From an uncultured Bacteroidales bacterium (lineage in GTDB: Bacteria; Bacteroidota; Bacteroidia; Bacteroidales; Muribaculaceae), in NCBI GenBank assembly GCA_947644715.1, contig CANSAP010000007.1:1-64000 (forward strand): a stretch of 64,000 nt of DNA, written 5' to 3'. Positions within the stretch are counted from its first letter, which is position 1. Each line of letters opens with the position of its first letter. Below are positions 39,512-45,075 of this stretch, piece after piece. The notes under the pieces were generated by a model. The model made no database searches. It had not been told where the DNA came from and worked only from the letters and a program-made list of their open reading frames with translations. The position numbers were made by a program, and so were the translations under genes.

Positions 39512-39724
39512 ATGTCAGAAACAGAAATGAATCGTTACAGGCTGACGTCACTGGATGAACCCGGCGATGAGCGCTTGGCTCAAATTATGCGTGAAGTGGC
39601 AGAGGATGCCAAAGAAAGCAGCCGCCGTGCGGCACAACGGGTGGCTGCCGGAATTGATGCGGCAGCGCAGGCAGCGCAGGCAAAATGGGGTGAGATAATT
39701 GATAGAATGAAAAATGAAAAGTAG
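39512..39724 (+). CDS. Small helical protein paired with zeta-like kinase; candidate antitoxin
   Basis: Protein of 70 residues, predicted entirely helical and rich in Ala, Glu and Arg (LAQIMREVAEDAKESSRRAAQRVAAGIDAAAQAAQ). It begins with a short RYRLTSLDEPGDERL motif that I recall ahead of similar Bacteroidales zeta-like genes. It has no DNA-binding motif that I can see. Its 3' end overlaps the ATPase gene by 11 bp, so the two are translationally coupled with the small protein first, the order usual for antitoxin-toxin pairs. The antitoxin role is inferred from position and size only. Confidence 0.65.
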   Translation: MSETEMNRYRLTSLDEPGDERLAQIMREVAEDAKESSRRAAQRVAAGIDAAAQAAQAKWGEIIDRMKNEK

Positions 39725-40313
39725 TCATAGACCGGTTCTAATTGTGATTGCCGGCCCCAATGGCTCCGGTAAGACCTCTGTGACTACAAAGATTCTGAAT
39801 CATGAGTGGTTGGAGGATTCAGAATACATCAATCCCGATAACATAGCGAAGGATAAGTTCGGTGATTGGAATAATCGAGATGCTGTGTTAAAAGCAGCCA
39901 TTTTCTGTAAGAATTGGAGAGAGCGTTGCTTGGCTGAAAGCCGTAGTCATATATTTGAGACCGTAATGTCGGCTCCTGATAAAGTTGATTATATTTTGCA
40001 AGCCAAACAGGCTGGGTTCTTTGTACGGCTATTTTTTGTGTCAACTCAATCTCCTACAATCAATGCCAAACGTGTTGCGCAGAGAGTTCTGAACGGAGGC
40101 CATGATGTCCCGATTCCCAAAATTATTTCTCGATACGATAAATCTATTGGTAATTGTGCTATTATATCGCGAATAGTTGACCGCCTGTATGTTTATGATA
40201 ACTCGGTGGAAGATGCCGATGCCACTTTGCTGTTTCGCATGAGTGAGGGTCGACTCGTCAAGCGTTATGTTGATGAGCTTCCGGGTTGGGCAGAGAAGAT
40301 TTTGCAGGAGTGA
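39714..40313 (+). CDS. Zeta-toxin-family P-loop kinase (COG4185-like)
   Basis: P-loop phosphotransferase of 199 residues related to zeta toxins, which phosphorylate UDP-N-acetylglucosamine or similar. Walker A is PNGSGKTS (residues 15-22). YINPDNIAKD near 38-47 holds the Asp typical of the zeta substrate site, HIFETVMSAPDKVD near 80-93 and RVAQRVLNGGHDVPIPKIISRYDKS near 120-144 match the helix with the Arg residues that close on ATP. Codon use here is less GC-rich than in neighbouring genes (many AAA, ATT, AAT codons), which hints at transfer. The gene follows the candidate antitoxin with an 11-bp overlap and ends 5 bp from the convergent methyltransferase-like gene. Confidence 0.8.
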   Translation: MKSSHRPVLIVIAGPNGSGKTSVTTKILNHEWLEDSEYINPDNIAKDKFGDWNNRDAVLKAAIFCKNWRERCLAESRSHIFETVMSAPDKVDYILQAKQAGFFVRLFFVSTQSPTINAKRVAQRVLNGGHDVPIPKIISRYDKSIGNCAIISRIVDRLYVYDNSVEDADATLLFRMSEGRLVKRYVDELPGWAEKILQE

Positions 40314-41113: not shown

Positions 41114-43245
41114 TTCTTTGTGCGAATGTAGTTAGCTACTATTTTAATCACATCCTCACCATGTCGCTCGGCGAGGGTCGGCCCAATGCCGTTGCACTCC
41201 ATAAGACCTTTAGGCGTGACGGGAAGATTGTTGCAGATGCTGATGAGAGCCTTCGTTGAAAGAACCTGAAATGCCGCAACCTCCAGCTCCTTGGCTTTGG
41301 CCATGCGCCAGCGGCGCAGTTTCGCAAAGAGTTCGGGATTAGAGATGTCGGTGGATTCTTGCGCGGCCTTCTGTCTCCCTTTGCGCTCCTTGCGCTGCGC
41401 GGCGTCAGCTTTGCGGGAGCCGCCCGGCTCCTCAAGCATGACGATGAGTTGCGCACGGCGCTTGAGATACTCGGCGGTGGAGAACGGATGCTCCTCCAGA
41501 TACTTCAGCATAGCAATGGTGAGCAGCAACTCCTTGCGCAACGGCTCACGCGTGCGCTCAAGGCGTTTTTGCAGTTGGGAGCTGTCATGCTCTGTGGGAG
41601 TGTCGGAGAGCAATGCGTTGACAGGAATGAGACGGTTGTAGAAATACTTCGCTCCGGCGCGCACGCGGCTCTGCAGTTCCGATTCCGAGAGGGGCACCGT
41701 GTCGGCAGCGATTATTCCCCGGTACTGCGCGGCGAAGTTATATCCTACTTTGCGCAGCTCGGCCAAGTCACGCGCGGCTACCGAGTAGCGCTGCATGAGG
41801 TTGGGATAAGTGGAGCGGAAGGCCTCCTCCGCCACCCGGTGGAAGTCGCCGAAGTAGCGTTCAATCTGATCCGGGAGGAACAGCTTGTCGAGCAGTGTGG
41901 CTACATATTCCAGCTCCAGCCGGGTGACCTGCGAGCCGTCAGGGCGGGTCAGACGCCCCTGCTCAAGGAAATTATTCACAGCCGGGTCAGTGATGATGCT
42001 GTCCTGGCGAAGCGGCGATGTCAGCACAAGCCCCTCGAGATTGCGGCAGCGGGAGAGCGCCACATAGGCTTGCCCGTGAGCAAAGGAAGAGGAGGCGTCG
42101 ATGCAGGCGTGGTTGAAGGTCAGGCCTTGACTCTTGTGGATAGTTATGGCCCAGGCTGTCCGCAGCGGAATCTGGGCGAAGGCTCCGTCGACCACTTCGG
42201 TCATCTCTTTTGTCTTGGGGTCTATGTCATAGCGGGTGTTTTCCCAGATGGCACGCCCGACTGTGATTGGCTGCTCCACATCGGGGACACGTACCGTCAC
42301 CTCATCAACACCAAGAGCCTGCACCGTGCCAATCATGCCGTTGAAGTAGAGGTGGCTTTCGGTGTCATTCTTGATAAACATCACCTGAGCACCCACCTTC
42401 AGGCGCAGAGTCTCATCAGCCGGATAGGCATTCTCCGGAAATTGACCGTCGATAATGCAGGAGTAAGATTTCTCCTTGCCTGCAATCCGAGCCATTTCCG
42501 AGTCATTGATGGAGCGGGCAGTGGCATTGTGTGTAGTCAGTCGAATCCAATGTTCTCCTGTGGGGGGCTTGAAGGAGGGGAGGTAGCGGCGGTTTAGCGT
42601 CTCGAGAGTGAGGGGCAGGTCACGTCCCGAACGTATGTTGTTAAGCAGTGACAGGAACTCCGCGTCATCCTGACGGTAGACCTTTCCAAGCTCCAACGTA
42701 ATGTAGCCGGCAGCGGCCAAAGCCTGACTGTGGAAAAAGTAGGGGGAGGCATATCGGTCGCGCAGCAGCATCCATTCATCCTCTTTGACCACCGGAGGCA
42801 GCTGTTGCAAATCGCCGATGAGCAGGAGCTGCACCCCGCCGAAAGGGCGATTCGGATTGCGCACTCGCCGCAACACCTCATCGACATAGTCAAGCAGGTC
42901 AGCGCGCACCATGCTCACCTCATCAATCACGAGCATATCCATGGAGCGGATCAGAGCCAGCTTGCGCTTGCTGAACTTCTGGGCTTCCCGGCGCGCCCCC
43001 GGAATGTAGGGCCCGAAGGATAACTGGAGCAGCGAATGCAGCGTAGTGCCGCGGGCATTAATGGCGGCAATCCCCGTGGGGGCAGCCACCACAATCCGCT
43101 TCGAGGAGCGGGTGCAGAGATTGCGCAGGAAGGTGGTCTTACCCGTTCCGGCTTTGCCTGTCAGGAAAATATTTGTACCCGTATGTTCTGCCAACCTGAA
43201 GGCCAGCCGCAGTTCGGGATTCTCGGAAGATTCAGAAGGATTCAC
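41110..43245 (-). CDS. Pif1-like superfamily 1B helicase with C-terminal HRDC-like domain
   Basis: 5'-3' DNA helicase of the Pif1 type, 711 residues. Motif I FLTGKAGTGKTTFLR near residue 30-44, APTGIAAINARGTTLHS (motif Ia), VIDEVSMVRADLLD (motif II), LLLIGDLQQLPPV (motif III), and AWAITIHKSQGLTFNHACID plus AYVALSRCRNLEGL (motifs V and VI) are all visible. The last about 75 residues (from AKLRRWRMAKAKELEVAAFQVLSTKALISICNNLP) form an HRDC domain as in RecQ. Bacterial Pif1 enzymes unwind G-quadruplexes and assist replication through difficult DNA. A strong promoter lies just upstream and the methyltransferase gene is coupled downstream. Confidence 0.92.
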   Translation of the reverse strand: MNPSESSENPELRLAFRLAEHTGTNIFLTGKAGTGKTTFLRNLCTRSSKRIVVAAPTGIAAINARGTTLHSLLQLSFGPYIPGARREAQKFSKRKLALIRSMDMLVIDEVSMVRADLLDYVDEVLRRVRNPNRPFGGVQLLLIGDLQQLPPVVKEDEWMLLRDRYASPYFFHSQALAAAGYITLELGKVYRQDDAEFLSLLNNIRSGRDLPLTLETLNRRYLPSFKPPTGEHWIRLTTHNATARSINDSEMARIAGKEKSYSCIIDGQFPENAYPADETLRLKVGAQVMFIKNDTESHLYFNGMIGTVQALGVDEVTVRVPDVEQPITVGRAIWENTRYDIDPKTKEMTEVVDGAFAQIPLRTAWAITIHKSQGLTFNHACIDASSSFAHGQAYVALSRCRNLEGLVLTSPLRQDSIITDPAVNNFLEQGRLTRPDGSQVTRLELEYVATLLDKLFLPDQIERYFGDFHRVAEEAFRSTYPNLMQRYSVAARDLAELRKVGYNFAAQYRGIIAADTVPLSESELQSRVRAGAKYFYNRLIPVNALLSDTPTEHDSSQLQKRLERTREPLRKELLLTIAMLKYLEEHPFSTAEYLKRRAQLIVMLEEPGGSRKADAAQRKERKGRQKAAQESTDISNPELFAKLRRWRMAKAKELEVAAFQVLSTKALISICNNLPVTPKGLMECNGIGPTLAERHGEDVIKIVANYIRTKK

Positions 43246-43278
43246 TGTAAAAAATTATGTGCGGCAACACAGCCAATA

Positions 43279-43310
43279 CAAAAGTAGCAAGAAATTCGCA
43301 CGCCACCAAA
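43279..43310 (-). promoter_or_regulatory. Promoter of the Pif1-like helicase gene
   Basis: Minus-strand TTTG (43307-43310), 20 bp, TACTTTTG (43279-43286). Predicted start near 43273, leader about 28 nt. Confidence 0.75.
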
Positions 43311-43352
43311 TCATGGTTTTGCATTGTCTTGGTAAAAGGACTAAAAAGGACT

Positions 43353-43383
43353 TTTGAGGAATGGTTTGAATATGCTACTTTTG
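43353..43383 (+). promoter_or_regulatory. First plus-strand promoter ahead of the structured RNA
   Basis: TTTG at 43353-43356, 19 bp, TACTTTTG at 43376-43383. A transcript from near 43389 would cross a short A/T-rich hairpin with T-run (CCAAAAT with ATTTTGG, about 43440-43466), so it may give a very short RNA or read into the next unit. No open frame of more than a few codons starts here. Confidence 0.6.
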
Positions 43384-43456
43384 TCGGCGGTATAGACAGT
43401 CAACCGTAATCTTCGGAGTGATGTAAGAAGAAAATGAGGCCAAAATAAAAAATAAT

Positions 43457-43487
43457 TTTGGTTTTTGCGAATTAATTCGTAACTTTG
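43457..43487 (+). promoter_or_regulatory. Main promoter of the structured RNA
   Basis: TTTG at 43457-43460, 19 bp, TAACTTTG at 43480-43487, a full consensus match. The predicted start is near 43493, which makes the leader to the next ATG about 295 nt, far longer than any other leader in the window. Confidence 0.8.
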
Positions 43488-43492
43488 TTTCC

Positions 43493-43788
43493 CAAGCGGG
43501 TTCCCCATTCAGGTAGCCCGGACATCATTCTGAGAAAGCGTTAATGCTTTTGCCTCTTGTGGAAAATCGCCAATCTTCTGTACAGTAAAGGCAAAGCAGA
43601 CGACGCTCACACCGGTAGCCATTTCTATCCGGGGATGCTTGTGCATCCCGGGTTGGAAAGCTATACAGGCGTGAGGTTGACTGTTTTTTTACTGTAAGGC
43701 GTTTGGCGATGCCTCCACAAGAAAAAACTTTCGGCCTCACGCCATTTTGTTGACGACTGGGGTAACTCACAAACCAACCGGTATTAAT
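43493..43788 (+). ncRNA. Structured RNA: 6S-like small RNA or long cis-acting leader
   Basis: A segment of about 296 nt with no credible open frame. Helices seen: 5' hairpins CGGGTT/AGCCCG (43497-43520) and AAAGC/GCTTT (43535-43550); P1, CTTGTGGA and ATCGCCAA (43556-43573) with TTGGCGAT and TCCACAAG (43703-43721); P2, TACAGTAAA (43581-43589) with TTTACTGTA (43688-43696); P3, CTCACACC (43606-43613) with GGCGTGAG (43668-43675), 7 of 8 pairs; and an apical hairpin GGGATGC-TTGT-GCATCCC (43632-43649). Together these form one long, bulged rod, an architecture shared with 6S RNA. GGCGTGAGG (43668-43676) is also a perfect 9-bp match to CCTCACGCC (43735-43743), which lies after P1, so it can switch to a pseudoknot or alternative helix followed by ATTTTGTT. 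The Bacteroidales-1/6S class is one candidate that I cannot confirm. The 3' end is uncertain. Confidence 0.65.
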
Positions 43789-45075
43789 ATGACTAAAATT
43801 ACAAACAAGCCCCTGTTTTTCCTGTCAGGAGATGTTAAGTTAGTTGACGGCAAGTTGACTTGGAAGCAGGGATGGCTCAGCCTTATCGGAGGCGGAAAGA
43901 ATGAAGTGGAAATTGCATCGCTTAAAGTGCTAAAAGTTTCCAAGGGAGTTTTGAATCCCCACATAACATTAGGGGGTAAAAAGCCCGGGCATGACTCCCC
44001 CTTCCCTGACTATGACTTCCTCTTTACTATTAAACTCCCGAAGAGCCAGGTTTCGGCTTTGATTCAGTTAATTCGCGAAACAGTTCCCAACGCTCCGGTA
44101 TTTTCCGGAGATTTGGAGAAGGTGATGTGCGGTAAAGGCATCTATAAACCGCAGGCATTGTTTGCGGCAGAGCCTGCATACTTGCCGGACTGTGAGTCTG
44201 TGTGGTGCTACAACGACAGAGCGATTGTAGCCGATGAGAATGGTACCTCTCCGGTGTATTACAAAGATATACGCTTCTTTAATCAGTCAAAGGAAGGGGT
44301 GCTTTTCGGATATCAGAAAAAGTACAGTGTCAAAAAATTGCGCGGCGATGCAGCGAAGGCTTTGAAAGAAGTTCTGATATCGCATGGCGCAGAACTGCAT
44401 GGCACAATGGAGGGCGAGACCTATAAAGGAAGTAAAGGTCTGTGCTTCTGGAAGCGAAACGAGGAATTAGTGGTGGGCAAGGATGGTGTCTCATTCTCCT
44501 ATTCCAAGGGAAAGAAAAGCGACTCGCTTTATTTGCCATATAAAGACATAGTGGCCGTAGGCAAAGGCAGTAAACTCACCATCTTCGGCAAACAGAACAT
44601 CATCAGTGAGACATCCTTCAGCTCTGAAGCACGTAAAGCCATCGCGGCTCGTGTTGCGGAACATGCCCAAGGCTATGCCAAGAAATACGTCAAGAGCTAC
44701 TTCAAGCTGCTTGGTCTGATACCTCTTTGGTCTCGCCCTTCTTATGGTCAGATTGGCTATTCAGAAAAGGGGGTGGTTATTATTCCGCGTAAAAAGGATC
44801 GCAAAGAGGGTAAGCTGCCTCCCGTAATCAGCGCACCCATGGAGAATGTCCATGCTTATCATCGCAAGGGCAAGAATTTCGTAATCGTTGTCAGCTCAGG
44901 CAATGTCCGCGAGTTCAACGAAGAGCAACTCCAAGGTCATGTGCACTATATAGGCTTCTCTAAAATGAGCGGAGCAGGAGACCTTCTCTCCACCATTAAG
45001 AACAATGCCAAGAAACTTTTCGAGTCAACATCCAAGGATGATGTGAAAAAGGCATTCAAGAACTATAAGTTTTAA
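43789..45075 (+). CDS. Unrecognised protein with PH-like repeats
   Basis: Protein of 428 residues with no signal peptide or membrane segment. The start ATG at 43789 follows the structured RNA; an upstream in-frame TTG at 43747 would overlap it and is less likely. The chain contains several beta-rich units that each end in an Ile/Val-rich strand plus helix, for example GKLTWKQGWLSLIGGGKNEVEIASLKVLKVSKG, SVWCYNDRAIVADENGTSPVYYKDIRFF, LVVGKDGVSFSYSKGKKSDSLYLPYKDIVAVG and GQIGYSEKGVVIIPRKK. This is how bacterial PH domains look, and there may be three or four in tandem. The Lys-rich C-terminus could contact nucleic acid or membrane. I know no function. The gene is alone between the RNA and repeat copy B. 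Confidence 0.75.
   Translation: MTKITNKPLFFLSGDVKLVDGKLTWKQGWLSLIGGGKNEVEIASLKVLKVSKGVLNPHITLGGKKPGHDSPFPDYDFLFTIKLPKSQVSALIQLIRETVPNAPVFSGDLEKVMCGKGIYKPQALFAAEPAYLPDCESVWCYNDRAIVADENGTSPVYYKDIRFFNQSKEGVLFGYQKKYSVKKLRGDAAKALKEVLISHGAELHGTMEGETYKGSKGLCFWKRNEELVVGKDGVSFSYSKGKKSDSLYLPYKDIVAVGKGSKLTIFGKQNIISETSFSSEARKAIAARVAEHAQGYAKKYVKSYFKLLGLIPLWSRPSYGQIGYSEKGVVIIPRKKDRKEGKLPPVISAPMENVHAYHRKGKNFVIVVSSGNVREFNEEQLQGHVHYIGFSKMSGAGDLLSTIKNNAKKLFESTSKDDVKKAFKNYKF

Follow-up and report, generated by a model that had tools for sequence, protein, structure and literature searches.

What is the role of a leader of about 295 nucleotides (nt) that contains no gene, can fold into a long rod and carries one segment with two mutually exclusive partners? 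The question is raised by a 64,000-nt stretch of DNA (hereafter the window) from an uncultured Bacteroidales bacterium of the Muribaculaceae, part of contig C7 (CANSAP010000007.1) of a 2.4-Mb assembly, in which a promoter and a structured RNA precede a gene of 428 amino acids (aa) at 43789-45075 on the forward strand. An earlier note had left open whether this RNA is a 6S-like small RNA or the regulatory leader of the gene. Comparison with its relatives points to the leader, and with moderate confidence we assign it to an as yet uncatalogued RNA family of Bacteroidota whose members act in cis as leaders; it would work as a strand-exchange attenuator or in a riboswitch-like manner and would form a portable unit.

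The layout that the earlier note had described was borne out letter by letter. The consensus promoter at 43457-43487 consists of a -33 TTTGG (43457-43461) and a -7 TAACTTTG (43480-43487), with 19 nt from TTG to TAACTTTG, and the leader extends from there to the ATG at 43789. The median 5' untranslated region of B. thetaiotaomicron is given as 32 nt in PMC7366714. The interval 43488-43788 folds with -118.5 kcal/mol compared to -84.5 kcal/mol (standard deviation 5.2) in 100 dinucleotide shuffles (z -6.6), and none of the 100 shuffles folds as well as the native sequence. The structured RNA itself spans about 43535-43750, all on the forward strand. It begins with a small hairpin, V (43535-43550), in which a conserved AAAGCG pairs with GCTTT. 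The rod that follows is closed by P1, a helix of 16 base pairs (bp) divided by an internal loop into an outer part (43556-43563 with 43714-43721, 8 bp) and an inner part (ATCGCCAA at 43566-43573 with 43703-43710, 8 bp). P2 (43581-43589 with 43688-43696, 9 bp) and P3 (43593-43599 with 43681-43687) are nested within it, their 3' strands forming the continuous segment 43681-43696. Within the rod lie W (CTCACACC, 43606-43613), an apical hairpin (43629-43653) with a 7-bp stem GGGATGC/GCATCCC in the minimum free energy (MFE) fold, and X (GGCGTGAGG, 43668-43676). X is common to both exclusive pairings: it can pair with W or, perfectly, with 43735-43743 in Y (CCTCACGCC; 43735-43750 together with the T-rich tract that follows), as the letters confirm. 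On the 3' side of the rod, the conserved GGCGTTTGGCGATGCC (43698-43713) includes the strand with which P1 inner is completed; this segment can also fold into an alternative hairpin, GGCG/TGCC.

Conservation and covariation in relatives had been named as a test on which the RNA should stand or fall, and it survived. In a partner-swapping test, each helix was scored in 145 sequences against swapped partners. P1 outer exceeded the swapped-partner median in 144/145 sequences (z 41) and P2 in all 145 (z 37), and P3 reached z 14.1. Both pairings of X covary, X-Y (z 14.5) more strongly than W-X (z 9.1), with controls at 2.2 and -1.1, which strengthens the earlier guess of a switch or a pseudoknot. 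X departs from GCGTGGG in 37 of the 145 aligned sequences; among these, the match between X and Y is still strong in 36 and that between W and X in 22. Triple changes of W, X and Y occur within single sequences (e.g., L041, L230, L281 and L315). X has a further partner in the apical arm (z 11.8 in 106 sequences); this arm is missing in some relatives, where the gap between W and X is shorter than 20 nt (29/145). Y, for its part, can pair with Z, a segment near the start codon (z 11.0 in 144 sequences, compared to 0.8 for the reversed control). The V hairpin (z 5.1) and a pairing of the V sequence AAAGCGT with the 3' half of Y, available in many relatives (z 6.6), are weak beside the other helices, and in the window V-Y amounts by eye to GCGT/ACGC only.

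The same pattern is seen in two alignments, one of 40 diverse sequences and one of 16 sequences from the class scan described below, 15 from other orders and one (L306) from the same order. In the first, pairing in the rod helices amounts to 90.9%, and 20 of the 24 pairs show double changes, including all eight of P1 outer, six of eight in P1 inner and six of eight in W-X. For X-Y together with GGCG/TGCC, the corresponding values are 88.7% and 10 of 13 pairs, and the covariation score of either state was matched by none of 500 shuffles. In the second, both states show 98.3% pairing; double changes occur in 14/22 pairs of the rod (seven of eight in P1 inner) and in 4/11 of the X-Y state, counts reached by 0/500 and 6/500 shuffles, respectively. 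The second alternative hairpin, generalized as GGNN/NNCC, covaries as well (GGC/GCC to GGT/ACC). Two mutually exclusive helices are therefore both conserved, as in an attenuator or an expression platform, and since both partners of X are kept in relatives the RNA looks like a regulatory switch.

How such a switch might operate can be outlined. Transcription would start at the RNA's own Bacteroidetes-type promoter and produce the rod with P1, P2, P3 and W-X, in which X (of the GCGTGGG type) closes the rod by pairing with W. The rod is the predicted stable form, as MFE folds contain W-X in 138/145 sequences and X-Y in two. Alternatively, X could pair with Y just past P1 to give a helix that is mostly 8-12 bp long (128/145), after which comes a T-rich tract with a mean of 6.0 T among the 8 nt that follow Y; this pairing would be accompanied by GGNN/NNCC, which takes one strand of P1. 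We infer that pairing of X with Y terminates transcription, or otherwise keeps the gene off, and that W-X is the read-through form, in which case a signal acting on the rod, be it a metabolite, a protein, an RNA or temperature, would set the expression of the gene, usually 50-80 nt downstream. After read-through, Y might pair with Z, which lies about 23 nt ahead of the start codon, and could thereby hold X-Y open.

Several observations weigh against this outline. The T tract of the window copy is weak (ATTTTGT) and shorter than in copies such as L222, the covarying Y-Z pairing near the start codon is not needed for termination, and a tree-based test, which called six pairs, was not significant for X-Y or for W-X. 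The first two of these would fit better with a pseudoknotted RNA in which P1 to P3 stay intact while X leaves W for Y; X-Y crosses P1, so that X-Y with P1 intact would be a classic pseudoknot. Such an RNA would be a leader that binds a ligand or protein and controls translation or stability instead of termination, and P1 and P2, its framework, are the best supported helices of all. W-X covaries too, however, the covarying GGNN/NNCC shares a closing base with P1 inner, and the T-rich tract directly after Y is conserved, so that we regard the pseudoknot as the strongest competitor but a rather unlikely one.

The position of the RNA in the relatives indicates that it belongs to the gene behind it. 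Among 210 copies with at least 400 nt of downstream sequence, the next open reading frame (ORF) of at least 60 aa lies on the same strand in 181, on the opposite strand in 25 and is lacking in four, which supports the regulatory leader of the two alternatives first proposed. Upstream ORFs are nearer balance (107 on the same strand, 86 opposite, 4 none; n = 197). The first in-frame ATG follows the end of the model match at a median of 60 nt, half of the values falling within 54-75 nt (n = 179); the gene is thus found on the same strand at a regular distance, as expected of a cis-regulatory leader. A promoter box is also a regular companion. In 123/140 relatives, the 120 nt upstream of V contain a TANNTTTG box, compared to 10/140 for the 100 nt beyond and a mean of 11 for shuffles; a TANNTTTG box with TTG 17-22 nt before it is present in 77/140, compared to 3 and 1 in the same two controls.

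The own promoter, the long rod and the terminator-like 3' end would also suit a stand-alone small RNA, whether 6S-like or of another kind, whose end merely happens to lie upstream of genes. The strand bias of 181 to 25, the clustered ATG distances and the more balanced upstream genes speak against this reading. 6S RNA is an independent transcript unlinked to the next gene and usually occurs in few copies per genome; here, the source genome holds four copies, other genomes up to nine, and a same-strand gene follows 181/210 copies. Nor did database comparison favor the 6S alternative of the earlier note, for which a search of all Rfam models, 6S and Bacteroidales-1 in particular, had been suggested. 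At gathering scores, Rfam 15 identified two tRNAs only in the whole window; a cmscan of 43200-44000 against all 4227 families (E ≤ 10) returned three matches at chance level, none of them to 6S. No Rfam 15 family covers the RNA in the window, in eight relatives, in 18 loci of the order scan or in 17 loci of the class scan. The 6S families RF00013, RF01685 and RF01693 could be ruled out, as none matched here and Bacteroidales-1 (RF01693), which we take to be the 6S RNA of this group, lies on another contig of the source genome (G000:C12:28233-28427, L011 1501-1695; 121.5 bits). We therefore consider an independent small RNA improbable. No description of the RNA was found in the open-access literature consulted. 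As PMC8040213 predicts thousands of candidates, it may be present there unnamed, and the same may apply to papers beyond open access.

The distribution of the copies indicates a family that extends far beyond the source genome. Among 61 genomes, blastn found matches in eight, the genome itself and seven others, the latter with eight short stretches around GGCGTTTGGCGATGCC. Around these matches the downstream genes differ, and the helices are kept despite letter changes. The family was then traced with two covariance models, R1 (from nine sequences) and R2 (from 40 diverse sequences), across the phylum Bacteroidota. The samples for genus, order, class and phylum overlap, the genomes are assemblies, many of them incomplete, and genes were called mechanically. 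R1 located the RNA in 59/111 genomes of the genus and 44/198 of the order, R2 in 47/247 of the class, 41 of which belong to other orders, and in 12/198 of the phylum, five of them outside the class. An exact pattern of the core was present in 29/111 genomes of the genus and 105/397 of the family (17/30 genera) and, read backwards, in none of these. In a scan of genome contigs, the core pattern matched at least 119 stretches, almost all of which bear the label Bacteroidales or that of a family within this order, with Duncaniella muris, Xylanibacter rodentium, Barnesiella and Prevotella among the carriers in the matches listed. Two contigs named as Clostridia look like mislabelled bins, because contigs of equal length are present in genomes of the same family (G293 and G325). 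One archaeal match (L130), in which the model finds nothing, was taken as chance.

From 289 model matches, 231 were retained after those that overlapped a better match, mostly the palindrome on the opposite strand, had been dropped; they represent 218 different RNAs. Genomes contain up to nine copies (nine in G527, eight in G550). The four of the source genome lie in the window and on C59, C9 and C10, and one additional match, a weak one, corresponds to the window copy on the opposite strand. In L291, L292 and L293, two copies of the RNA lie about 325 nt apart. The two entries per locus overlap in the comparison, and their match of 100% over more than 860 nt may therefore be one DNA compared with itself. 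In L227, a thiamine pyrophosphate (TPP) riboswitch candidate at 1960-2049 (53.8 bits, cut-off 54.3) is found near an RNA copy on the other strand.

What the RNA would control is less uniform than the RNA itself. Comparison by blastp divides the 182 proteins encoded downstream on the same strand into 91 clusters, of which the three largest have 45, 13 and 10 members. By crude rules, 118 of the 182 have a hydrophobic, signal-like start (13 in shuffled sequences) and 35 a lipobox-like site (one in shuffled sequences). In 141 scanned proteins, 60 Pfam families were recognized at E ≤ 0.001, including BspA-type leucine-rich repeats (19), a lipocalin-like domain (5), BACON (4) and a type IX secretion system (T9SS) sorting tail (3). 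The gene content, examined with both Pfam and NCBIfam, suggests no ligand. The cluster of 13 consists of small helix-turn-helix (HTH)-like proteins, and HTH_26 was found in 2/141. An HTH-like family of about 70 aa (MIHVGxxIKE...), possibly regulators, stands directly behind the RNA in L022, L025, L041, L075, L106, L107 and L282. In the window, the 428-aa protein has no Pfam family at E ≤ 1, and its earlier description as PH-like is not supported. Homologues of this gene are present in 3/111 genomes of the genus, its own included; the RNA stands in front of the homologue in G087 (L301), where P1, X and Y carry compensatory changes, and is lacking in front of the one in G027 (L302). Further upstream in the window (39512-40313), a 70-aa ORF immediately precedes the gene of a 199-aa protein with a match to Zeta_toxin (PF06414, E 3e-10), an arrangement that resembles a toxin-antitoxin pair.

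The diversity of genes is matched by signs of leader mobility. Leaders that are 91-98% identical stand before genes of different clusters, and their alignment stops within 7 nt of the RNA end (L118/L186, L175/L186 with the promoter region included, L045/L051, L046/L051 and L087/L200); in contrasting pairs such as L043/L045 the similarity continues and both genes belong to one cluster. The leader, sometimes together with its promoter, thus appears to have been exchanged between genes. These near-identical leaders, the abrupt end of their similarity at the RNA 3' end and the very diverse gene content would also fit an element that acts at the DNA level, i.e., a site of recombination or a piece of a mobile cassette, with palindromes that form hairpins in the DNA. 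Against this stand the own promoter, the strand bias, the G-U pairs tolerated in the helices and the T tract. In addition, the exact core pattern is absent from 2.9 million viral contigs, and blastn gave no match in plasmids (with the window and L222) or in phages (with L222 only). An origin from phages or plasmids was rejected on the same negatives, and a DNA-level element seems very improbable, the least probable of all explanations weighed.

A cis-acting leader with exchangeable strands invites comparison with known systems. Trp-type attenuators and terminator-controlled riboswitches likewise have exclusive helices that share one strand, one stem followed by a T tract, and genes on the same strand. 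Our RNA differs from them in that its genes have no common pathway, that Z lies after the T tract, that X has an extra partner in the apical arm and that no conserved leader peptide was noticed, although no systematic search was made for one. In the HMP-PP (thiS) riboswitch, as presented in PMC6478431, the aptamer is embedded in the terminator, and the putative X-Y state would similarly hold a structured hairpin between the arms of a terminator-like stem. Unlike that riboswitch, our RNA has no Rfam match and its genes are not thiamine genes. The DUF805 RNA (RF03081) and DUF805b (RF02914), which reportedly stem from a survey of 2017, resemble it in being short elements of leaders that sit immediately ahead of start codons. 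In L313, RF03081 (1686-1752, 65.2 bits) comes 43 nt after our RNA, and in L318, RF02914 (1716-1748; 31.5 bits, below the cut-off) is also found downstream of the RNA, in both cases between the RNA and the start codon. The idea suggested by these two loci, that a DUF805 RNA is the missing half of the leader, was rejected because none of 30 fetched strong DUF805 loci carries our RNA, a single model match (11.4 bits, E 0.56) being at chance level. Flavo-1 (RF01705) is likewise an RNA motif, widespread in Flavobacteriaceae (PMC2864571, PMC9723704), but it had no match in the copies scanned with Rfam, and where PMC9723704 describes it as indistinctly sense or antisense to transcripts, our RNA is strand-biased. 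Bacteroidales-1 and 6S-Flavo (RF01685) come from the same phylum and were candidates for a promoter-bearing rod RNA, but neither matches here.

To our knowledge, few classes of cis-regulatory RNA are known in Bacteroidota. This is a dominant phylum of the gut, and the present family comprises 218 different copies with clear covariation. More tentatively, and at somewhat less than even confidence, we envisage a phylum-wide, so far undescribed switch RNA that trades one strand among W, Y and the apical strand in response to one common signal, and that travels as a unit of promoter and switch to stand before newly acquired genes for surface proteins, lipoproteins or regulators. Given the mixed set of genes, with its BspA-type repeats and signal-like starts, it is plausible that such a signal would be a general one for the remodelling of the cell surface.
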